Below are positions 22,167-35,558 of a stretch of 35,725 nucleotides of DNA, piece by piece; position 1 is the stretch's first letter, and each line of letters starts with the position of its first letter. The notes beneath the pieces were generated by a model that had not been told where the DNA came from, did not search any database, and saw only the letters and a list, made by a program, of their open reading frames with translations. The stretch is taken from the IMG/VR virus record IMGVR_UViG_3300044993_000228, positions 1 to 35,725 of that record; one strand, written 5' to 3'. This DNA is from a virus. Both the position numbers and the translations under genes were made by a program.

Positions 22167-23356
22167 GGTGCCATCCAGTCGCACAGGAAGGCGGTGATGT
22201 CCGCCACGCCCGCGCACCCGTCGCGGTCGCAGTCGGACCACCAGCGGCAGTTGAACCAGTCGCCGAGGAACGCGAACAGCGCGGCGGAGTCGCCGCGCGC
22301 GCCCCACAGCCGCCACGTCCGCAGCCGGTAGTCGGCGATCATCAGGTTGTGCACGCTCGACCACCGAATCCGCAGATCGTCGATCACTTCGACGTACCAG
22401 CCGTGCGCGTAGTCGGGTACGACGCCGTGCTGGGTCACCAGCGGCGCGTCGGAATACGCGATCGTCTGCATGAGGGCCGCGGCCATCGGCGGCGTGCCCG
22501 TGGCCGTGCGGGCCTGCGCGACCGTTCCCGCGTTGAGCACGCGCCCGTCGTCGGGCACGCCCAGCGCGTCCCACCGATGCCCCCACCAGTCCTGCATGTT
22601 GCTTGTGCTCCACCTGCCGACGAACCAGTCGGTGCGCGTGGGGTCGTAGCCGGGCTGGCCGCACGTGCCGCACGGGTCGTTCGGGTAGACACACGGCGCG
22701 GCGCAGATGCCGTACCGTGAGCAGTCGGGGTTCAGGCACGCGCCCGCGCCGCCGTAGGCCGGCGCGCACGGCGTGCCGTGGTCGCGGTCGTGGCGGATGC
22801 CGACGGCGCGGCCCTGCGGTCCGGAGAACTTGATGAAGATGCTGTGTGCGCTGTAGGGCGGTTGCTGGCCGGGCGCGAACCCGCGCGTGGTCAGGTACGG
22901 CTCGCCCTCGTAGCGCTCCCGCAGGAACGTCGGAGATGCGCCGCCGTTGGGCGCGACGAACGCCTTCACGCAGTCGGTGCGCCCGTCGCTCTCGAAGTAG
23001 CCGCGGTACGGTGGTGGGTTGTTGCGGCGCTGGGAACGGCCCAGGGCCCAGATCGCGCCGTTGAACTCGCCGCCGTCACCGACGATCGGAGAACTCGGTG
23101 AGTGCTCGCGGTGTCGCGGCTTGGTCGTGATGATCTGCATGACCACCTCGGTCGGGGCCGGGGTGGTCGGGCGTTGCCACGACCGAATCCAACGGTTGTT
23201 CGCTGGGCTCCACGTCAAGACCTGCACAGGCGCGTAAAAGACGCGCTGCTCGTAGACCGGCTCGCCGGGCGGCGCGCCGAACGGGTCGGACTGGCAGTAC
23301 GCGGGTGCAGAGAGGCCGGTCACCAGCAGCAGGGCGGGCCAGAGCAGGGGTTTCAT
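22163..23356 (-). CDS. Secreted protein with dockerin-like acidic C-terminus
   Basis: 397 residues with an N-terminal signal peptide (LLWPALLLVTGLSAPAYCQS, probable cleavage near residue 21). The middle is rich in Pro, Trp and Cys (CAAPCVYPNDPCGTCGQ). The last 35 residues, DWFNCRWWSDCDRDGCAG followed by VADITAFLCDWMAP, resemble the EF-hand/dockerin-like C-termini (DCDxDG..ADI.AFL.DW) seen on exported planctomycete proteins. Such a host-type secreted protein in a phage points to acquisition from the host. Two neighbours are lysis- or fibre-like. It overlaps the hydrolase-like gene by GTGA and the methylase gene by ATGA, so the three are co-translated. Function unknown. Confidence 0.7.
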   Translation of the reverse strand: MKPLLWPALLLVTGLSAPAYCQSDPFGAPPGEPVYEQRVFYAPVQVLTWSPANNRWIRSWQRPTTPAPTEVVMQIITTKPRHREHSPSSPIVGDGGEFNGAIWALGRSQRRNNPPPYRGYFESDGRTDCVKAFVAPNGGASPTFLRERYEGEPYLTTRGFAPGQQPPYSAHSIFIKFSGPQGRAVGIRHDRDHGTPCAPAYGGAGACLNPDCSRYGICAAPCVYPNDPCGTCGQPGYDPTRTDWFVGRWSTSNMQDWWGHRWDALGVPDDGRVLNAGTVAQARTATGTPPMAAALMQTIAYSDAPLVTQHGVVPDYAHGWYVEVIDDLRIRWSSVHNLMIADYRLRTWRLWGARGDSAALFAFLGDWFNCRWWSDCDRDGCAGVADITAFLCDWMAP

Positions 23357-24471
23357 GGGACGGCTCCTGACGGTTCGGTCGGGTGCAGGCAGTGCGGACT
23401 GAGCCAGAGGCGTTCGCGGTGACGGTTGGCCTTGCCCTGGTTGTTGCCGATGTTAGCCATGCCGCCGTTGGCTTTCCATTTTATGACCCGCCAGTCGGGC
23501 GGCATGTGGTGTTCGCCGTCGTAACCGGCGAGGACGATGCGCATGCGAGGGTCGGACCCGCGCTCGATGGCCCACTCGCGTACGTCGTGCGCGACTTTCA
23601 GGGAATCGACGGCGTAGAGTCTTGGGTCGCGCCCGGCGGTGTTGGCGTAGGGCGGATCGAGGAAGACGCCGGTGGTGCCGTGTTTGACGGTGATGGCGTC
23701 GCTGGCGACGACGCGGTACCAGTCGCCGCAGCACACGCGGACGCGGGCCATGCGGTCTCGGAAGGTGCGCATCCAGGCCGTGAGGTAGTCAAGGTGATCG
23801 TCGAAGCCGGGCGGTGTCAGCAGACGGACACCAGTTCCTCTGTCGCTTAGGTGTGGAAGTTGGCGACAGACGCCCTGGCCCTTGCCGCTCAGATGAGGGC
23901 GCTGGCGGCAAACGCCACAGCCTTTGTTGGACAGGTGAGGACGTTTGCGGTGAATGCCGTGGCCGGTGGGGGCGTCGGATCGGGTGAAGACGCCGTCGAT
24001 GGATACCCAGGGGCCTTCGCCGGTGCACCAGCCACTGCCGATCCAGCAGGACTGGCCCCAGACCCACCAGCCGGCGATCTTGGGGTCGTGGTAGTCGGGG
24101 TCGCCCATGAGGCGTTCGGTCAGGCGTTCGCGCTGGCCGATCAGCCACAGATGACGGGCGTGCAGGTCGGCCTCGTTGACGGGCCAGTCGGCGTATCTGG
24201 CCACGGCGTCGGGGTTGTGCTGGATCGAGCGCCAGACGTTGGCCACGAAGCCGTCGGCGTCGTTGATGGTTTCGATGCCGGTGGGGACGCCGCCGGGCCG
24301 CAACCAGTGGACTGCACCCGAGCCGTAGAACGGTTCGATGTAGTTGCGAACGTCGGAGCCGATTGCTAACCAGACGACGCGGGCGATCTTGGCCTTGCCG
24401 CCGAAGTACGAGTACAGGGGCTTGTAGCCGTCGGGCAGTGCGGGGAGTGACGGCAAGATCGCGGAGGTCAC
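23353..24471 (-). CDS. D12-class DNA adenine methyltransferase with repeat insertion
   Basis: 372 residues. D12/Dam-family motifs: SYFGGKAKIA (FGGK at 23-26), EPFYGSGAV (46-54, AdoMet-binding motif I) and the catalytic DPPYAN (DPPY at 272-275). It transfers a methyl group to adenine N6, probably protecting phage DNA or marking it. Unusually, residues 177-218 hold three 14-residue tandem repeats (RPHLSNKGCGVCRQ and two variants) inside the target-recognition region. No accompanying endonuclease is present, so it is an orphan enzyme. It overlaps both neighbours by ATGA. Confidence 0.85.
   Translation of the reverse strand: MTSAILPSLPALPDGYKPLYSYFGGKAKIARVVWLAIGSDVRNYIEPFYGSGAVHWLRPGGVPTGIETINDADGFVANVWRSIQHNPDAVARYADWPVNEADLHARHLWLIGQRERLTERLMGDPDYHDPKIAGWWVWGQSCWIGSGWCTGEGPWVSIDGVFTRSDAPTGHGIHRKRPHLSNKGCGVCRQRPHLSGKGQGVCRQLPHLSDRGTGVRLLTPPGFDDHLDYLTAWMRTFRDRMARVRVCCGDWYRVVASDAITVKHGTTGVFLDPPYANTAGRDPRLYAVDSLKVAHDVREWAIERGSDPRMRIVLAGYDGEHHMPPDWRVIKWKANGGMANIGNNQGKANRHRERLWLSPHCLHPTEPSGAVP
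23818..23943. repeat. Three 42-bp tandem repeats within the methylase gene
   Basis: Encodes the three copies of a 14-residue unit with consensus RPHLS.KG.GVCRQ. In-frame 42-bp units in the target-recognition region suggest that the loop can expand or contract without frameshift. DNA identity is lower than in the 90-bp array, so it is older or under different constraints. Confidence 0.8.
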
Positions 24472-27389: not shown

Positions 27390-28282
27390 GCTCTGCCTCC
27401 TGTCCAGATCGCACGGCTTCGGGCCACAAACTCCACCGCGTCGCGCGTCGCGCCCGACGCGATCCATTCGCGCACGTCCTTGAAGCCCGGCGGCGGCGCG
27501 ATCATGCGCACCCGCCGCCCGTCCGTCGTCAGTTCGTCGCACAGCACCGCCGCGCCGCGACGGCCCGGCAGGTCCGCGTCCGAAACCACGACGATCGAGG
27601 TCGAGCGCGGCACGCAGCGGACGAACGCACGCACCAGGTCGCGCCCGCCGGTGCACGACGGACGACCGACGGCCCAGAGTCCGAGTCCGACCAGCGCAGC
27701 GGTGTCGGTCATGCCCTCGGGCAGGTACAGCGCGTCGCGCACCTCCACGGGTCCGTTGAGTCCGAACAGGCCGTTGCGGCTTCCGCTCATCGCCCACTTG
27801 CGCCCGTCGTCGGCGCGGAGCCGCACGCCGATCGGTTCCGGCGACGATCCGTACATCGGCGCGGCCAGCGCAGAGATGCCGATGGCCCAGACCACGCCGA
27901 TGCGCCGCAGGCTTCCGGCGGGCAACCCCAGCGCGTGCTCGCGCGCCTCGACCTCGTGCGGACGGTCCGACTTGACCAGCGCGCGCCAGTTCGGCGCGAT
28001 GTATTCGGACGGGACGCGCGGCGGCGGCGGTCCGTGCCCGGCGGACGCGGCCCGCGCCTCGACGCCCAGCGCGGCGCGCACGGCGTCGAACGGGCAACCG
28101 GCGTGACAGTACAGCAGCAGTCTGCCGTTGTCGCCGATCGACGCCGAAAGCGACGGCGTGCTGTCGTCGTGCGCCGGGCACCGCGCCTGCCAGCCCTTCC
28201 CTGCGCGACGCGGGCGCAGGTTCAGCCGCGCGAGCACCGCGTACAGGTCTGCGTCGGTCAACGTCGCGCGCGTGTTCGTCAT
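27386..28282 (-). CDS. DNA primase (CHC2 zinc finger plus TOPRIM)
   Basis: 298 residues. N-terminal zinc-binding domain with C35, H38, C59 and C63 in ARCPAHDDSTPSLS and LLLYCHAGC, as in DnaG/phage primases. C-terminal TOPRIM with LPEGMTDTAAL (Glu 189) and IVVVSDADLPG (Asp 235, Asp 237). It makes RNA primers for replication. Short for the family and without a fused helicase; the separate helicase is the next gene upstream in transcription. It overlaps the helicase by ATGA at 28279-28282. Confidence 0.88.
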   Translation of the reverse strand: MTNTRATLTDADLYAVLARLNLRPRRAGKGWQARCPAHDDSTPSLSASIGDNGRLLLYCHAGCPFDAVRAALGVEARAASAGHGPPPPRVPSEYIAPNWRALVKSDRPHEVEAREHALGLPAGSLRRIGVVWAIGISALAAPMYGSSPEPIGVRLRADDGRKWAMSGSRNGLFGLNGPVEVRDALYLPEGMTDTAALVGLGLWAVGRPSCTGGRDLVRAFVRCVPRSTSIVVVSDADLPGRRGAAVLCDELTTDGRRVRMIAPPPGFKDVREWIASGATRDAVEFVARSRAIWTGGRA

Positions 28283-30006
28283 CGCCGTCCTCCGAGTCTT
28301 GCGTCGAGGATCGCGCGCGCATGTTCAAACGTGCAGTTCCGCGCGTTCCTGTAGCCGAACCGTTCGAGCATGCGCGCCTGTTTGAGCGTGCACAGACCGG
28401 CCATGCGGCGCGTGATGATGCCGCCGATCAGTCGCGAGCACTCGGCGCGGCTCATCTGTTCAACGTCGGCGCGGCCGAACCCGGCGCGCTCGAGCGTCTC
28501 GACCTGCGCCGGGGTCGGGGCCTTGCCGGTCGCCCAGCCGCGCTCGCGGCCCGGCATTGCCGCCGCGCCGTCAAAGAGGTCCTCCTCGGCCAGCGCGTAG
28601 CGCGCCAGCGCGACCACGCGCGCCCTGGCTGCGCGGAGTTCGTCGGCCCGCCGCGCCGGTTCGGACTCGCGCTCCATGCGGGCCCGTCGCGCCCGCGCCA
28701 GCGCGTCCGCCACGTCGCACTCGCCGCTCTGCATCGCCGCCGACGCGGCGTCGATGTCGGCGTCCTCGTAGTCCCCGCCGAGCACGTCGGCGGGCGTGAC
28801 CAGCCTGTGACGGCCGCAGTTGCCCGTGAAATCGAGCACCGTGAGGTGCGGCTTCGCGCTGGCCGCGATGGCGGCGCGCCGCGTGGCGGAGTCGGGCAGG
28901 CCGTCAACGCCGCCCGCGAGCGGGCGCGTGCCGCGCCCGATGCACTGAGCGAACAGCGCGCGGCTCTTGGTCGGCCGCGCCATGACGATCATCGAGCAAC
29001 CGGGATCGTCGTAGCCCTCGGTGAGCACGCCGACGTTGCACACGTAGCGGTAGCGGCCAGCGCGGTGCTCGGCGAGGTCGAACGCGCGGCGGTCGTCCGG
29101 CGTCTCGCCGCACACGTACCTCGCCGAATCGGGCTCATAGTCGTTGAGGATTTCGGCCAGCCGCGCCGCCTGCCGCACGCTCACAGTGAAGATGATCGCG
29201 CGGCGTCCCCGCGCCTCGCGCGTCACAGACGCCGCGACCTCGTGCAGGACGCGCTCCGCCTCCATCTGTTCGGCGAGTTCGCCCTGGTTCAAGTCACCGC
29301 CGGTCGTCTTCACCTCGGCCAGTTGCAGGTCCTTCACGTACACCGTGTGCGCGCGCACGGGCACCAGCCATCCGTCGTTGATCGCGTCGGCGATTTCGTA
29401 GGTCATCGCGACCGACGCGAACACGCGCCCGAGCGCGGCCTCGTCGAGACGATCGGGCGTGGCCGTCACGCCGAGGTGCGGCACGCCGCTGAAGTGCTCG
29501 TAGACGCGACCGTACGAACCGGCGACGGCGTGGTGCGCTTCGTCGGTGACGATCAGGCCGAACTCCGACGGATTGAACCGCACGATCCGTTTTGCGTGGA
29601 GCGAGTCCTTGGACGCGACGATCACTCGGGGTCTGTGCAGGCCTGGCAGGTCGGAGTGGCGGTCGGCCATCTCGATCCCGCACGGCTCGCCGAGTACGGA
29701 CTCGATCGTGCGTGCGTTCTGCGCGATCAGTTCCTGCCGGTGCGCGAGCACCAGCGCGCGCTTGGCGCAGTGCGCGCGGATCGCGTGCGCAATCACCACG
29801 GTCTTGCCGGTTCCGGTCGGCATGACCAGCAGCGTCGAAGGGTTGTCGCGCAGGCATGCGCCGATGTTGTCCACGGCGCGCCGCTGGTAGTCGCGCAGGC
29901 CGAACGCGCCGTTGGTCGGCGCGTGTGCGGACGACGACGCCGGACGCGGCGGACAGGCGCGGACCGGGGTACGAACGGGTACGTCCATGTGCGCGAACAG
30001 GCTCAT
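28279..30006 (-). CDS. Superfamily 2 DNA helicase (DEAH box)
   Basis: 575 residues from ATG 30006, overlapping the ParB-like gene by ATGA; the longer frame overlaps it in another register. Motif I MPTGTGKTVV (62-71), Q-like motif LRDYQRRAVDN (37-47), motif II VTDEAHHA (DEAH at 155-158), motif III VTATPDRLDEA (180-190), later LTEGYDDPGCS and QCIGRGTRP (motifs V and VI). A helicase of the restriction-type/UvrB-like SF2 class, presumably opening DNA at replication initiation or in recombination. The C-terminal 150 residues are helical and basic and may bind DNA. Confidence 0.9.
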   Translation of the reverse strand: MSLFAHMDVPVRTPVRACPPRPASSSAHAPTNGAFGLRDYQRRAVDNIGACLRDNPSTLLVMPTGTGKTVVIAHAIRAHCAKRALVLAHRQELIAQNARTIESVLGEPCGIEMADRHSDLPGLHRPRVIVASKDSLHAKRIVRFNPSEFGLIVTDEAHHAVAGSYGRVYEHFSGVPHLGVTATPDRLDEAALGRVFASVAMTYEIADAINDGWLVPVRAHTVYVKDLQLAEVKTTGGDLNQGELAEQMEAERVLHEVAASVTREARGRRAIIFTVSVRQAARLAEILNDYEPDSARYVCGETPDDRRAFDLAEHRAGRYRYVCNVGVLTEGYDDPGCSMIVMARPTKSRALFAQCIGRGTRPLAGGVDGLPDSATRRAAIAASAKPHLTVLDFTGNCGRHRLVTPADVLGGDYEDADIDAASAAMQSGECDVADALARARRARMERESEPARRADELRAARARVVALARYALAEEDLFDGAAAMPGRERGWATGKAPTPAQVETLERAGFGRADVEQMSRAECSRLIGGIITRRMAGLCTLKQARMLERFGYRNARNCTFEHARAILDARLGGRR

Positions 30007-31099: not shown

Positions 31100-31801
31100 T
31101 CAGAACGGCGGGCACGCCGCCACCACGTCGCTCCAGTCCTTCGAGGTCATCTGCTCAACCGGCCTGCTGCCGCGCACCTTGTCCACCGCGGACCAGAACG
31201 ATTCGGCATCGCACTTGTCGCCGAGTTCCGCGACCCACGCCGCCCACGCCGAATCCTGATCGTGCTGCACCGTGAGCGCGCCGTTGTTCGACGGCGCGGG
31301 CCTCGGCAGCACGGGCGCGACGCGCGCCGACGGGCGCGGCGGCGCGGGCGGCGGCGCGGGCGGCGGCGCGGGCGCGGACCGACCGCCCAGGGCCTTGCAG
31401 CGCGCGGCGAACCGCGCCATGAACGACTCATCAGCGGGCCTGGCCTCGTACGTGCTGATGTCCCACCGCTCGCGCGTGCGCCCCTTGTACATCTCGTGTT
31501 TCATGTACAACGCGACGCCGCGACCGTTCGCGAACTCCATGTTCAGAGGGTCGTAGTTCCACCCGAGTTTGTCGAGTTTGTCCTTGACGAACGTCTCGGT
31601 GCGGTCCGTCAGGTAGAGCGTCACGTCCTTCTCCGCGCCGTTGACCTCGAACCACAACCTGATGTAGTTCGTGCCGCTCATCGCCGTCGCGCCGCACTCG
31701 TGGCGCAACAGATTGCCCGTGTAGTTGCCCGGCGGCCACAGTTCGGAATCCGCGCCGCCGCCGTCGATGCTGTCCGGTGCCCATGAATTGTGGTACGTCA
31801 T
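31100..31801 (-). CDS. SSB-like single-stranded DNA-binding protein candidate
   Basis: 233 residues from ATG 31801, chained to the upstream ATPase gene by ATGA. N-terminal 130 residues are beta-rich with GNYTGNLLRHECG, IRLWFEVNGAEKDVTL and LTDRTETF, consistent with a small OB-fold-like or DUF669-type domain. A Pro/Ala linker (APPPAPPPAPPRPS) follows, and the C-terminus ends CPPF, reminiscent of SSB tails. Phages encoding Sak4-type ATPases usually carry such an SSB-like partner. The family name is uncertain. Confidence 0.6.
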   Translation of the reverse strand: MTYHNSWAPDSIDGGGADSELWPPGNYTGNLLRHECGATAMSGTNYIRLWFEVNGAEKDVTLYLTDRTETFVKDKLDKLGWNYDPLNMEFANGRGVALYMKHEMYKGRTRERWDISTYEARPADESFMARFAARCKALGGRSAPAPPPAPPPAPPRPSARVAPVLPRPAPSNNGALTVQHDQDSAWAAWVAELGDKCDAESFWSAVDKVRGSRPVEQMTSKDWSDVVAACPPF

Positions 31802-32691
31802 CGCTTCGTCTCCTTCTTGTCCTCTCCGAGCACCAATGACCAGAACGCCGCCGCGCACGCGCGCGGCTCGTCCGGCAATCTGTACTCCGGTTCCAACCCG
31901 TACTGGTTCTTCGCGTCCGCGACCGCGCTGTACTCGCAGCGCAGAATCCGCTCGTGCGCGATCGCCTTGCCGTGCGCCCGCGCGATGTTCAAGTCGGCAC
32001 GGTTCTGCTCCACGATCGGGCGGAACGTGCCGAACAGCACCGCCTCGCCCCACGCCTTCGTGCGCGCCCACACGTCCTCGGTGCCGCAGTTGCATTCGTA
32101 GCGGTCGTAGTCCGGACCGTCTGGCGCGTTGAAACGCCGCACCCGCGCGTGCCCGAGCAGCAGCACGTTGACGCCGCGATCCGACAGCGCACTCAAACGC
32201 GCGAGCAGTTGCGGCCACTCGCGCGACACCACGCGCGCGCCGCGCCCGAACGCGGCGAAGCCGCGCTCGCCCCAGTCGCCGCCGAAGTTCGTTTGACAGA
32301 CCCACGCGGCGCACAGCGATTCGAGCCCGACCATCGCGTCGAGCACGACGGTCCTGTATTCCGACGGCGCGCCGATGACGGCCTCGATGCCCGCGAGCAG
32401 TTGCGGCCAGGTGCGAGGCTGCATCATCGGCACATCAGGCACCAACCCGCGCGAGTGCAGCGTCAGATAGCCGTTCTCCTCGGGGGCCATGATCATCAGC
32501 GGATCGGGCGCGAGCGCGCCGATGGTCGTCTTGCCGAACCCCTCGACGGCGACGTAGACCACGCGCGCGCCGCGCGGCGTCTTGACGGGTCGGCGAATCT
32601 CCGGCGCGGCGGACCGCGGCGCGGATAGCGGCGTTGGTTCACCGGTTCGAGGCGGAGGCCTGGTCGGTGTTGTCGTTGTAGATGTTGTCAC
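31798..32691 (-). CDS. Sak4-like RecA-fold ATPase (recombination)
   Basis: 297 residues from GTG 32691 with AGGAG eight bases upstream. RecA/AAA core: VAVEGFGKTTIGA (P-loop near 48-56), YRTVVLDAMVGL with Asp 118 as Walker B, and NVLLLGHARVRRF. The N-terminus is a Thr/Pro-rich unstructured stretch. Sak4 proteins (PF13479-like) anneal single-stranded DNA with help from SSB and are found in phage recombination operons; the SSB-like and nuclease genes on either side fit. Overlaps the nuclease gene by 53 bases and the SSB gene by ATGA. Confidence 0.75.
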   Translation of the reverse strand: MTTSTTTTPTRPPPRTGEPTPLSAPRSAAPEIRRPVKTPRGARVVYVAVEGFGKTTIGALAPDPLMIMAPEENGYLTLHSRGLVPDVPMMQPRTWPQLLAGIEAVIGAPSEYRTVVLDAMVGLESLCAAWVCQTNFGGDWGERGFAAFGRGARVVSREWPQLLARLSALSDRGVNVLLLGHARVRRFNAPDGPDYDRYECNCGTEDVWARTKAWGEAVLFGTFRPIVEQNRADLNIARAHGKAIAHERILRCEYSAVADAKNQYGLEPEYRLPDEPRACAAAFWSLVLGEDKKETKR

Positions 32692-33715
32692 TCGGCGACT
32701 CCTGTGCAAGTTCGGCGTGAACGTCGGCCACCACGCGGTAGCCGCTCGGCACGCCCTGTGTCATCGGATCGAAGCCATCAGCGCACGGACCGAAGTAGGG
32801 ACAACGGCCCCAGCGCATACAAGCGTCCGCGTTGCGCGGCCATTGACCGTCGCGCTGGAATCCGCGCAGCACGCGGAACCACTGCGCCATCTCCTCGCGC
32901 GCGGCGGCGAGGTCGGAATCGAGGCGCGGAATCTCGTGCCGCGCGTAGTACCAGTCCGGCCGCGCCGCGATGTCGGCCATCACGCGCTCGGCGTACTGCT
33001 CCACGGACTCGCGCGCGCCGTCGCTGTCTTTCTTCCGGGAAAGCAGCCGCGGGCGCAGACCGGGCACGCGCGCGACGTCGTAGATTACCGTTGTCGCGGG
33101 ATAGCCGAGTTCGCGCGCGCCGAGGATGTACCAACTGATTTGCCGGTCGATGTTCAACCTGCGCCAGTAGTCCGAAACAGGCCCGATGTCCTCGCGTGTG
33201 GTCTTGTTCTCCACCACGGCGACGCGCCCGTCCGCCAGTTCGTAAATCGCGTCGATCTTGCCCGCCGCGACGAACGCACCGCGCCCGCGCCCGACGCGGA
33301 GTTGCCACGTCGTCTCGGTCGCCAGGCACTTGCCAAGCGGCGCATCGCGCCAACGCCATTCCCAGCCCGCGACCATGCACGCGGTCAGTTCGGCGTCGGC
33401 GGGATCAGCGAGTCCGGCACGCGCGGTCTCCACCGCTGCCTCAAGCGTGTCGCCGCGGCGCACGCGCTCGACCGCCGCGTGGAACGCAGAACCGATCGAC
33501 AGCGGCAAACTCGATTGATCGCGGCGGATGCCCAGCTCGTAGGCCCACCAGTGGCGGCGCGGGCACGCCGCGAGCGCGGAAACGCGCGAGTGCGTGATGA
33601 TGACTGGGAGCGAAATCGTCCGCGACCCGCCGCGGGGACTGCCGATGTCTGGTGAGTGAGGCCGATGCTCGGCGTCGCGCGCGCGGACGGGTCGGGACGT
33701 GCTGGATCTGCTCAT
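32639..33715 (-). CDS. Cas4/RecB-like PD-(D/E)XK nuclease with Fe-S cysteines
   Basis: 358 residues from ATG 33715, just after a promoter; the longer upstream frame would cross a terminator. Core: SIGSAFHAAVERV (His 79), AGKIDAIYEL (Asp 155), VAVVENKTTRED (Glu 169, Lys 171), the PD-(D/E)XK active site; IDRQISWYILGA is the Q motif. Cys 51 (LAACPRRHWW) plus the C-terminal CMRWGRCPYFGPC supply four cysteines spaced as in Cas4/AddB-type Fe-S nucleases. It probably resects DNA ends to give the substrate for the Sak4/SSB pair. No CRISPR array or cas genes are near. Confidence 0.85.
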   Translation of the reverse strand: MSRSSTSRPVRARDAEHRPHSPDIGSPRGGSRTISLPVIITHSRVSALAACPRRHWWAYELGIRRDQSSLPLSIGSAFHAAVERVRRGDTLEAAVETARAGLADPADAELTACMVAGWEWRWRDAPLGKCLATETTWQLRVGRGRGAFVAAGKIDAIYELADGRVAVVENKTTREDIGPVSDYWRRLNIDRQISWYILGARELGYPATTVIYDVARVPGLRPRLLSRKKDSDGARESVEQYAERVMADIAARPDWYYARHEIPRLDSDLAAAREEMAQWFRVLRGFQRDGQWPRNADACMRWGRCPYFGPCADGFDPMTQGVPSGYRVVADVHAELAQESPSDNIYNDNTDQASASNR

Positions 33716-33884: not shown

Positions 33885-34067
33885 TCAGTGCCGTATCTTT
33901 GCGGCATTCGCCGCGCTGTCGGCGGCCAGACCGTCCGCCAGCGCGGACAGGTCGCGGCCGAGGCCCGCGACCATGCCGCAGCCGCCCTGCGCCATCGCGA
34001 GCAACAGGAAAAACAGGACGATGCCGAGAACCAACAGATACCCAGTGGTGCGCTTCCGATCGTTCAT
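33885..34067 (-). CDS. Small membrane protein or lipoprotein
   Basis: 60 residues from ATG 34067 with GGGAGA upstream. One hydrophobic helix (TTGYLLVLGIVLFFLLLAMA, residues 7-26) ending in QGGCG, which could be a lipobox, then an Ala/Asp-rich helix (LSALADGLAADSAANAAK). Downstream of the first pentamer-repeat element. Role unknown. Confidence 0.55.
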   Translation of the reverse strand: MNDRKRTTGYLLVLGIVLFFLLLAMAQGGCGMVAGLGRDLSALADGLAADSAANAAKIRH

Positions 34068-34112
34068 GACGTCTCCCTTCGGCTGCGCGGCTCCGCCGCT
34101 GGTTGTTGAAGA

Positions 34113-34140
34113 CCCGCCGACCCGTCTCCGTGTCGGCGGG
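34113..34140. other. Hairpin abutting the first GCCNN array
   Basis: CCCGCCGAC (34113-34121) pairs perfectly with GTCGGCGGG (34132-34140), ten-base loop. One T (34141), then the array of pentamers begins. The arrangement is the same as for the hairpin at 35443-35472. Confidence 0.75.
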
Positions 34141-34141
34141 T

Positions 34142-34371
34142 GCCTTGCCAAGCCCTGCCACGTCCCGCCTCGCCAAGCCTTGCCGAGCCCAGCCGCGCCG
34201 CGCCTCGCCCGGCCTTGCCACACCTCGCCCGGCCTTGCCACGCCACGCCCTGCCTCGCCAAGCCTGGCCCCGCCACGCCTAGCCCTGCCTCGCCAAGCCT
34301 GGCCCCGCCACGCCTAGCCCTGCCGAGCCTTGTCTGGCCACGCCACGCCACGCCCCGCCCTGCCTGGCCAC
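34142..34371. repeat. Array of 46 GCCNN pentamers
   Basis: Read from 34142 in fives, 43 of 46 units start with GCC; the exceptions (GTCCC, ACCTC, GTCTG) each differ by one transition. The last two bases of each unit take at least twelve of the sixteen possible pairs. A 35-bp block (34252-34286) is exactly repeated at 34287-34321. It starts immediately after the stop of the gene at 34375 and is not a plausible protein. On the coding strand it is (NNGGC)n, with GG every five bases. Confidence 0.85.
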
Positions 34372-34374
34372 GGC

Positions 34375-34995
34375 TTATTCGAGCGCCTTCACGCCGCTGC
34401 GAACGACCTGAAACTTGCCGTAGGACGGGCGGAAGTCGCAGACGCCGACAAACATTCCGGCGTAGACGGCCAGATCGTGCATCAGTTCAGGACTGATGTA
34501 CTGCGGTTGCGTCACGCAGAACGTGAACGTCGCCTCCCAACCCTTGAGCATCGCGGGCCGACACCGCGTCACGCCGTTGCGCTGCACCTGCACGCGACAG
34601 CGGTGTTCGTAGTCCCACGTCGTCCTGCCCAGCGGCGCGTAGCGCTCATGGCAGGTGATCGCCGCGCTGGCGAGGTCGCGCAGGCTCTTGCGCGGCGAGC
34701 GCGGGTCCTGCCTGGACTTCGCCGCGCCGATCATGGCCTGCCGCATGTTCTCGCACGGGATCGCGAGCACGCCGTGCTCGTCGCGGTACACGTACGACTC
34801 GATGTTGTCGCCCTTCTTGGCCTTCGATCCCTTGGCCGCGGCGGCCTTCTCCGCGATCGCCTCGCAGTTCCAGCCGTGGAACAGCAGATCGGCGATGCCG
34901 CGCGCCGTGAACTCGAAGATGTAGGGGACGCCAGCCACGATGTCCGGCTCCGCTCCGTTGGTCACGTCCGGTCCGATCAACGTTGCGCTCTTCAT
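34375..34995 (-). CDS. Conserved-looking phage protein of unknown function
   Basis: 206 residues. Ends RPAMLKGWEATFTFCVTQ, then AVYAGMFVGVCDFRPSYG and KFQVV, an arrangement ('RP.F..W...f.v', 'AG...G.GD.RP..G.F.V') I have seen in uncharacterised phage proteins close to recombination genes. N-terminal part is a beta-rich domain (PYIFEFTARGIADLLFHG); a Lys/Ala-rich loop (EKAAAAKGSKAKKGD) splits it. A ribosome site AAAGGAG precedes the start. Assignment to a named family is not possible from the sequence alone. Confidence 0.65.
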   Translation of the reverse strand: MKSATLIGPDVTNGAEPDIVAGVPYIFEFTARGIADLLFHGWNCEAIAEKAAAAKGSKAKKGDNIESYVYRDEHGVLAIPCENMRQAMIGAAKSRQDPRSPRKSLRDLASAAITCHERYAPLGRTTWDYEHRCRVQVQRNGVTRCRPAMLKGWEATFTFCVTQPQYISPELMHDLAVYAGMFVGVCDFRPSYGKFQVVRSGVKALE

Positions 34996-35115: not shown

Positions 35116-35421
35116 TTATCTCCTGTGCTGCTTTGACTCGTGATCAATCTCGACGTACCCACAGTGATCGCACGCCCACGCTGGCGGCGCGTACGGCGCG
35201 CCGCCCATCGGGCATTCCCACGTCGGCGGATCGCCGGGGTCGCCTTCGTCGTATGTCAACGGCTCGCCGCAGTGTGGGCACGCGCGAGCGTGACCGCCGA
35301 ATCTGTCGGCGTCGGCGCGCTCCATCACGGCCAGTACGTGCGCCGCGTAACGCGCTTGCGCCGACCTGATCTGTGCCATGTCTTGTTCCGTGATCGCACC
35401 TTCATATTTTTGGTCGGTCAC
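35116..35421 (-). CDS. Small zinc-ribbon protein
   Basis: 101 residues from GTG 35421 with AAAGGAG upstream. Helical N-terminus (EQDMAQIRSAQARYAAHVLA) followed by a four-cysteine ribbon: ACPHCGEPLTYDEG, WECPMGG and WACDHCGYVEI, giving CxxC...C...CxxC. Metal-binding adaptor or DNA-binding protein; not named. Downstream of the second repeat-hairpin element. Confidence 0.7.
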   Translation of the reverse strand: MTDQKYEGAITEQDMAQIRSAQARYAAHVLAVMERADADRFGGHARACPHCGEPLTYDEGDPGDPPTWECPMGGAPYAPPAWACDHCGYVEIDHESKQHRR

Positions 35422-35442: not shown

Positions 35443-35472
35443 CCCGATCGGTTCGTTTCCGAACCGATCGGG
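35443..35472. other. Perfect 13-bp hairpin abutting the second GCCNN array
   Basis: CCCGATCGGTTCG (35443-35455) pairs with CGAACCGATCGGG (35460-35472) around TTTC; in the coding-strand RNA the loop is GAAA, a GNRA tetraloop. One T (35473) then the array. It lies 22 bases before the start of the zinc-ribbon gene. Confidence 0.8.
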
Positions 35473-35473
35473 T

Positions 35474-35558
35474 GCCATGCCGTGCCGCGCCACGCCTCGC
35501 CAGGCCAAGCCCGGCCCCGCCAAGCCGAGCCCAGCCCGGCCCAGCCCAGCCAAGCCAC
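35474..35558. repeat. Array of 17 GCCNN pentamers
   Basis: Seventeen consecutive pentamers all starting with GCC; the final two bases take eleven different pairs, including AT, GT and AG, not seen in the first array. Same order as the first element: hairpin, T, array. Together the two arrays use fifteen of the sixteen possible NN pairs, only GG being absent. Confidence 0.85.

Follow-up and report, generated by a model that had tools for sequence, protein, structure and literature searches.

The described system closest to the locus reported here is VIPR (Viral Interference Programmable Repeat), in which, according to a preprint of April/June 2026 (PMC13142463), phages encode a RAMP protein, Vipr, together with vrRNAs. 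As set out there, a vrRNA ends in a 3′ tail preceded by 9–16 YNNGG repeats, whose GGY is constant and whose NN is hypervariable; the range of 9–16 refers to the clades of SUSP1 and P. fulva, and no rule is given that covers all seven types. The NN letters are reported to pair with double-stranded DNA, with one base skipped between pairs, and the Vipr-vrRNA complex to repress transcription of competing phages and satellites; arrays in a staggered arrangement, whose vrRNAs overlap, are also mentioned, as are types that include nucleases or helicases (PMC13142463). RAMP proteins of class 1 CRISPR systems (Cas7, Csm3; III-A and type VII) are alike in the fold predicted for the protein studied here and in the holding of a guide RNA by repeated subunits, which for Vipr we infer from PMC13142463. 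The Vipr guide differs from theirs in that a fixed GGC interrupts it every two bases and in its 5-nt versus 6-nt periodicity, and neither a CRISPR array nor further cas genes were seen among the neighbouring genes searched. A third point of comparison is TRAP (MtrB), which reads GAGNN, a fixed triplet with a free two-base spacer, in tandem RNA, and whose spacers carry no information; our locus shares the layout of triplet and two-base spacer with TRAP and differs from it in protein fold.

We analysed a stretch of 35,725 nt (hereafter the window), which is positions 1–35,725 of the IMG/VR record IMGVR_UViG_3300044993_000228, a virus record with terminase, portal and head genes. Two arrays of GGC-NN units were found in it (Table 1), the second of which had escaped the earlier note. 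For array 1, our recount agrees with the 135 of 138 GCC positions previously reported as kept over 46 pentamers (on the + strand G 45/46, C 44/46 and C 46/46), with twelve of the sixteen dinucleotides in use at positions 4–5, while array 2 uses 11 dinucleotides at NN. GGY units make up 44/46 of array 1 and 17/17 of array 2. The perfect 35-bp internal duplication that had been described is real and spans 7 units; a further duplication of 20 bp likewise comprises whole units. The pattern (GCCNN)x5+GCC was matched 36 times in the window, against 0.00 times in 100 dinucleotide shuffles. On the − strand, the 5′ end of array 1 is located 3 nt past the vipr stop codon, and since both arrays lie between − strand genes, a transcript would read (GGC-NN)n.

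Table 1 Features of the two-array locus and its neighbourhood in the window.
Feature	Position	Strand	Description
DNA helicase phrog_16	28279..30006	-	phrog_16 helicase follows arrays in L012, L031, L057 and L096
Sak4-like AAA recombinase family	31798..32562	-	also adjoins vipr in L009, L012, L057 and L096
PD-(D/E)XK exonuclease, phage recombination type	32639..33715	-	neighbour
60-aa ORF	33885..34067	-	downstream of array 1; resembles small lipoprotein; neighbour only
Hairpin after array 1	34109..34141	-	GGC-AC-CCGCCGAC...GTCGGCGGGT; candidate 3′ tail of vrRNA 1
vrRNA array 1, candidate	34142..34371	-	46 in-register GGC-NN units (43 GGC, 1 GGT, 2 GAC)
vipr	34375..34995	-	206 aa, RAMP/Cas7-like protein, phrog_4652
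101-aa protein	35116..35421	-	between array 2 and vipr; weak DZR match, E 4e-4, below Pfam cut-off
Hairpin after array 2	35443..35472	-	CCCGATCGGTTCG-GAAA-CGAACCGATCGGG; candidate 3′ tail of vrRNA 2
vrRNA array 2, candidate	35474..35558	-	17 perfect GGC-NN units; upstream of zinc-ribbon and vipr genes

On the coding strand, both arrays are followed immediately by a strong hairpin, also absent from the earlier note, with a predicted folding energy of −25.2 kcal/mol (z −5.1) after array 1 and −26.5 kcal/mol (z −5.9) after array 2. The two tails have a GGC-AC-CCG start and the hairpin form in common, and their sequences are otherwise unlike. Domain and family searches gave no match for the 60-aa ORF downstream of array 1, and no homologue of the 101-aa zinc-ribbon-like protein was found among the array contigs; the latter is a possible, unproven accessory gene. 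The window contains no family known to Rfam. A blastn comparison of the array with phages gave no match, and literature searches on such phage pentanucleotide repeats yielded nothing useful. Elsewhere in the window, nine tandem 90-bp copies (positions 10–816, TRF score 1154) occupy a − strand ORF (3–977) and encode 30-aa repeats, and positions 23353–24471 show a weak match to a D12-class N6-adenine DNA methyltransferase.

The gene ending just before array 1 encodes a member of the Vipr family. All 71 aligned family members matched phrog_4652, a family of unknown function, and a profile of the family, with the window protein included, aligned to the PDB entry 36pp_D ('SUSP1 Vipr protein') with an E value of 4.3e-41, far above all other entries. 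On its own, the window protein matched SUSP1 Vipr weakly (E 0.065), so that its membership follows from the family profile and the fold. An AlphaFold2 model built on the 71-row alignment (pLDDT 90.1, pTM 0.83) found its best Foldseek matches in Cas7 of type VII CRISPR (E 2e-7) and in Csm3, for which VIA-align gave Z scores of 12.9 and 12.6; the newest entries of the fold library dated from April 2026 and SUSP1 Vipr (36pp) was not part of it. The predicted structure thus agrees with the RAMP fold (RRM core, G-rich loop) expected of a Vipr. The residues W153, G180, G184, R189 and G193, near the C-terminal glycine-rich stretch, are invariant.

A related-locus search with the window Vipr returned no relative, and relatives with 44–61% identity were present among the contigs of the pattern scan described below. 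The Vipr of phage DSL-LC04 (OR003939.1) is 52.6% identical to that of the window and also has a GGY-rich tract just 5′ of its gene, which differs in being GGT-rich and irregular. The OR003939.1 annotation (22429–23046) labels the DSL-LC04 protein a helix-turn-helix transcriptional regulator.

Viral contigs were scanned with an exact pattern of ten GCC at 5-base spacing, which matched at least 120 of them. NN entropy of the best array reached 2 bits or more in 114 of the 120 viral contigs among the matches listed. The reversed motif CCGNN, used as a control, was found in 27 contigs, each with 1–3 dinucleotides and therefore a low-diversity microsatellite, and a scan of cellular genomes with the same pattern gave mostly pure microsatellites. 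When all 64 triplets were combined with periods of 4–7 in the array-bearing contigs, NN-diverse arrays appeared for GCC/GGC at period 5 only. Across 3523 units read on the GGC strand, the first free base was purine-biased and the second flat; GGT accounted for 43 of 101 single broken units, which fits the GGY rule. As a positive control, the same regular expression recovered an 11-unit GGY array 110 bp upstream of vipr in phiSUSP1. Free variation of the GCC positions in relatives, which the earlier note had named as an outcome that would refute its claim, was not observed. Its other concern, an assembly artefact, is excluded because more than 100 independent contigs, as well as named phages (phiSUSP1), obey the rule with NN letters of their own.

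An all-versus-all gene comparison of 129 array contigs brought out one outstanding family of ~200-aa proteins, present in 91 contigs and adjoining the array in 88; its genes are nearly always found on the GGC strand. By profile search of the ORFs in the stretches examined, this Vipr family was detected in 88 of the 114 viral loci and 6 of the 11 genome loci with degenerate arrays, and in none of 139 low-diversity GCCNN/CCGNN loci (0/108, 0/25 and 0/6); as a portion of the first (viral) set went into building the profile, the figure of 88 holds partly by construction and the zeros do not. The GGC strand was that of the nearest family member at a ratio of 147:1. In the remaining 26 of the 114 degenerate viral loci, no Vipr was found in the stretch examined, many of these stretches being partial. 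Five MAG or genome contigs (L138, L178, L210, L212 and L232) likewise carry degenerate arrays with no Vipr match in the stretch examined; one of them, L232, carries an accessory gene of the fam2 type. This is one of three families regularly seen beside vipr, namely fam1 (phrog_15946, e.g. L010:7081-7524), fam2 (phrog_5926, e.g. L077:4788-5261) and the ParB-like fam3 (phrog_1033, e.g. L042:2753-3451), all of which are candidate vap genes.

Array position was assessed in 167 diverse array clusters, with genes called by a self-trained gene caller. Of these clusters, 113 lay mostly between genes, and those called as coding mostly corresponded to weak ORFs, the repeat being nearly stop-free in every frame. 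Where a cluster was flanked by two co-directional genes, GGC was on the coding strand in 85 of 89 cases, and loci with several clusters kept a single array strand in 41 of 41. Contig G039, which is mainly +, carries arrays on both strands, with a GGC array on the − strand 4 nt past the stop codon that ends a vipr operon on that strand, and G015, which is mainly −, has its sole array within a + strand island, indicating that array polarity follows the local gene and not the replicon. Eight other contigs (L104, L017, L029, L040, L065, L072, L093 and L120) bear diverse arrays with GCC, not GGC, on the neighbours' strand, and with the exception of L040 no Vipr ORF was found within the stretch examined; these arrays are possibly stand-alone vrRNAs, or served by a Vipr encoded elsewhere. 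A contig of only 36% GC (L054/G032) bears GGC arrays close to either end, inverted relative to each other, of which the left lies inside a called ORF. A second level of structure was seen in L028, L013, L128, L070, L123, L113, L232 and L020, in which runs of 7–22 GGCNN units are followed by short linkers that are contig-specific and repeated within the cluster (CGCA; TCA[GCA]; TT[GA][TC]; CCTCA[GA]; a GGC-A-GGC register shift; GGAACG[AC]; a 35-nt spacer). These repeated linkers probably mark vrRNA boundaries or tails.

Taken against VIPR of SUSP1, the window is alike in being phage-borne, in encoding a ~200-aa Vipr of RAMP fold, in the GGY/NN tandem beside vipr and on its strand, and in the structured 3′ tail. 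It differs in that its units are almost only GGC (43/46), whereas those of SUSP1 are mostly GGT; in its 46 + 17 units, against a published 9–16 in the clades of SUSP1 and P. fulva; in tails that are simple hairpins and unlike between arrays 1 and 2; in having recombination genes instead of a known vap beside vipr; and in the placement of its Vipr in a clade apart from SUSP1. We consider it very likely that the array and its neighbours form a VIPR locus of a tailed phage, in which Vipr would recognise DNA as directed by the NN letters. The locus is then an element of a kind already described (2026), of which the window is a further member and perhaps a long-array variant. The earlier statement that no described element follows this rule was reasonable without a search, but vrRNAs with GGY and NN are described in the VIPR preprint (PMC13142463).

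Under the VIPR reading, the − strand would be transcribed into guide vrRNAs of 46 and 17 GGC-NN units, each ending in a hairpin tail. Vipr subunits would grip the GGC that the repeats have in common, lining up along the RNA and leaving the NN pairs free, and these pairs would jointly specify a DNA target with one base skipped between pairs (NNxNNx). GGC would accordingly be fixed because Vipr contacts it, and NN free because it is the guide; by analogy with the published system, the NN letters probably spell the recognised DNA. Binding would probably repress or block a competing phage, satellite or prophage. In this scheme vrRNA expression, Vipr-vrRNA complexes, the 1-nt skip and repression are carried over from PMC13142463, and by the same analogy the vrRNAs of the window would be made and processed and would have targets.

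Four gapped 9-unit patterns from arrays 1 and 2 were matched against the viral contigs and hit 1, 1, 2 and 4 stretches, none of which extends past the seed; such a small number of seed matches is compatible with chance. Over ~2.5 Mb of DNA examined, skips of 0, 1, 2 and 3 bases gave 39, 70, 59 and 39 exact 7-unit matches and 4, 6, 2 and 3 8-unit matches, respectively, counts that do not single out one skip length. One 9-unit match, to the final nine units of array 1, is common to three related contigs (L298, L299 and L300) and does not extend. Among other contigs, the guide at L098:9457 has an 8-unit match with 1-nt skip to L175:749, within a fam1 gene (319–816), and the sole 9-unit exact match with 1-nt skip links the guide at L027:2896 to L024:4964, on an array-bearing contig; either is possibly due to chance.

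In the phylogenetic tree, the window Vipr groups with those of six contigs (L009, L012, L031, L057, L096 and L118; support 100/99), apart from SUSP1. In-register tracts of at least 30 units made up 14 of 33 tracts in this clade, where they reached 98 units, versus 2 of 305 elsewhere (median 12). One member, L009, has ordinary tracts of 12–16 units with a repeated tail, so that long tracts may be derived within the clade, or may have been lost in L009. Most clade members share a gene order of Sak4-like AAA protein, DUF669 ssDNA-binding protein, vipr, array, RusA and helicase, and in the window, Sak4, a PD-(D/E)XK exonuclease and a helicase are encoded near vipr. None of fam1 (phrog_15946), fam2 (phrog_5926) and fam3 (phrog_1033) is present beside the window vipr, and no recognised vap adjoins it. 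The long-array clade may be new, or may already be among the seven types of the preprint. A stronger proposal, which we put forward tentatively and hold to be somewhat less probable than its negation, is that the window and the six contigs constitute a VIPR subtype of their own. Its Vipr would act on uninterrupted vrRNAs of 30–98 units, a single transcript serving as several overlapping guides or making up a long filament, and would be coupled to the Sak4/SSB/RusA/helicase recombination module instead of vap.

The same gene neighbourhood underlies the alternative that survives best, in which the locus is VIPR-derived and repurposed, with Vipr and a long array serving as a scaffold in phage recombination or replication and not in guided targeting. 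The placing of vipr among Sak4, ssDNA-binding, RusA and helicase genes in the clade, the arrays of 30–98 units and the failure to find an external target all speak for it, but NN is still diverse, as guides would be, L009 retains ordinary arrays of 12–16 units with repeated tails, and missing targets mean little in sparse data; we regard this alternative as unlikely.

Far less probable is regulation of mRNA in the manner of TRAP, whereby a ring protein would read triplets with 2-nt spacers in untranslated RNA and NN would be uninformative. The logic of triplet plus two-base spacer is the same, and arrays begin a few nucleotides past stop codons, beside one gene family. The partner, however, has the predicted fold of Cas7/Csm3, and TRAP gave no Pfam match, up to E 1, among the best 25 families listed for the 71 members. 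Nor is run length fixed near 11: run lengths peaked at 10 units because of the search threshold, with no ring size near 11 apparent. Moreover, the partner shares a family with SUSP1 Vipr, and DNA targeting by NN letters has been reported for the latter (PMC13142463).

A structural element, in which the GG strand would form two-tier G-quadruplexes or the DNA would rely on half-turn spacing, is similarly improbable. The earlier note had suggested that GG every five bases might either form such quadruplexes or bind a protein repeatedly, and had pointed out that five bases is half a helical turn. Repeated protein binding fits the link with the Vipr family; the quadruplex part of the suggestion and the half-turn spacing find no support, since neither needs the third base C nor explains why a RAMP-fold gene always adjoins the arrays on the same strand. 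While GG does recur every five bases on the transcribed strand, the C is kept at thousands of units, hairpin tails and an adjacent RAMP protein are not called for by such an element, and arrays track the vipr strand (147:1) and occur on both strands in G039.

A neutral microsatellite, that is, a functionless GCCNN tandem repeat grown by slippage and now decaying, can be dismissed almost outright, because although the 35-bp and 20-bp internal duplications do represent growth by whole units, decay would not spare three of five positions, NN-diverse arrays were found only for GCC/GGC, and Vipr linkage is restricted to NN-diverse arrays, with none of the low-diversity GCCNN/CCGNN loci (108 + 25 + 6) lying by a vipr ORF. 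The original argument that the 5-base period and GCC are preserved, and NN is not, is upheld, and we attribute this preservation to selection.

With the VIPR reading, the odd repeat becomes the guide store of a phage system of RNA-guided DNA recognition, one proposed to predate CRISPR. NN-diverse GGCNN tracts beside phrog_4652 are a signature by which VIPR loci can be found from raw DNA: one scan yielded more than 100 contigs, with many of the vipr genes annotated as unknown or as HTH regulators. The window contributes a divergent clade whose guide arrays are much longer and sit among recombination genes, natural material for studying the cutting of long vrRNAs, the loading of Vipr and the possible overlap of guides.
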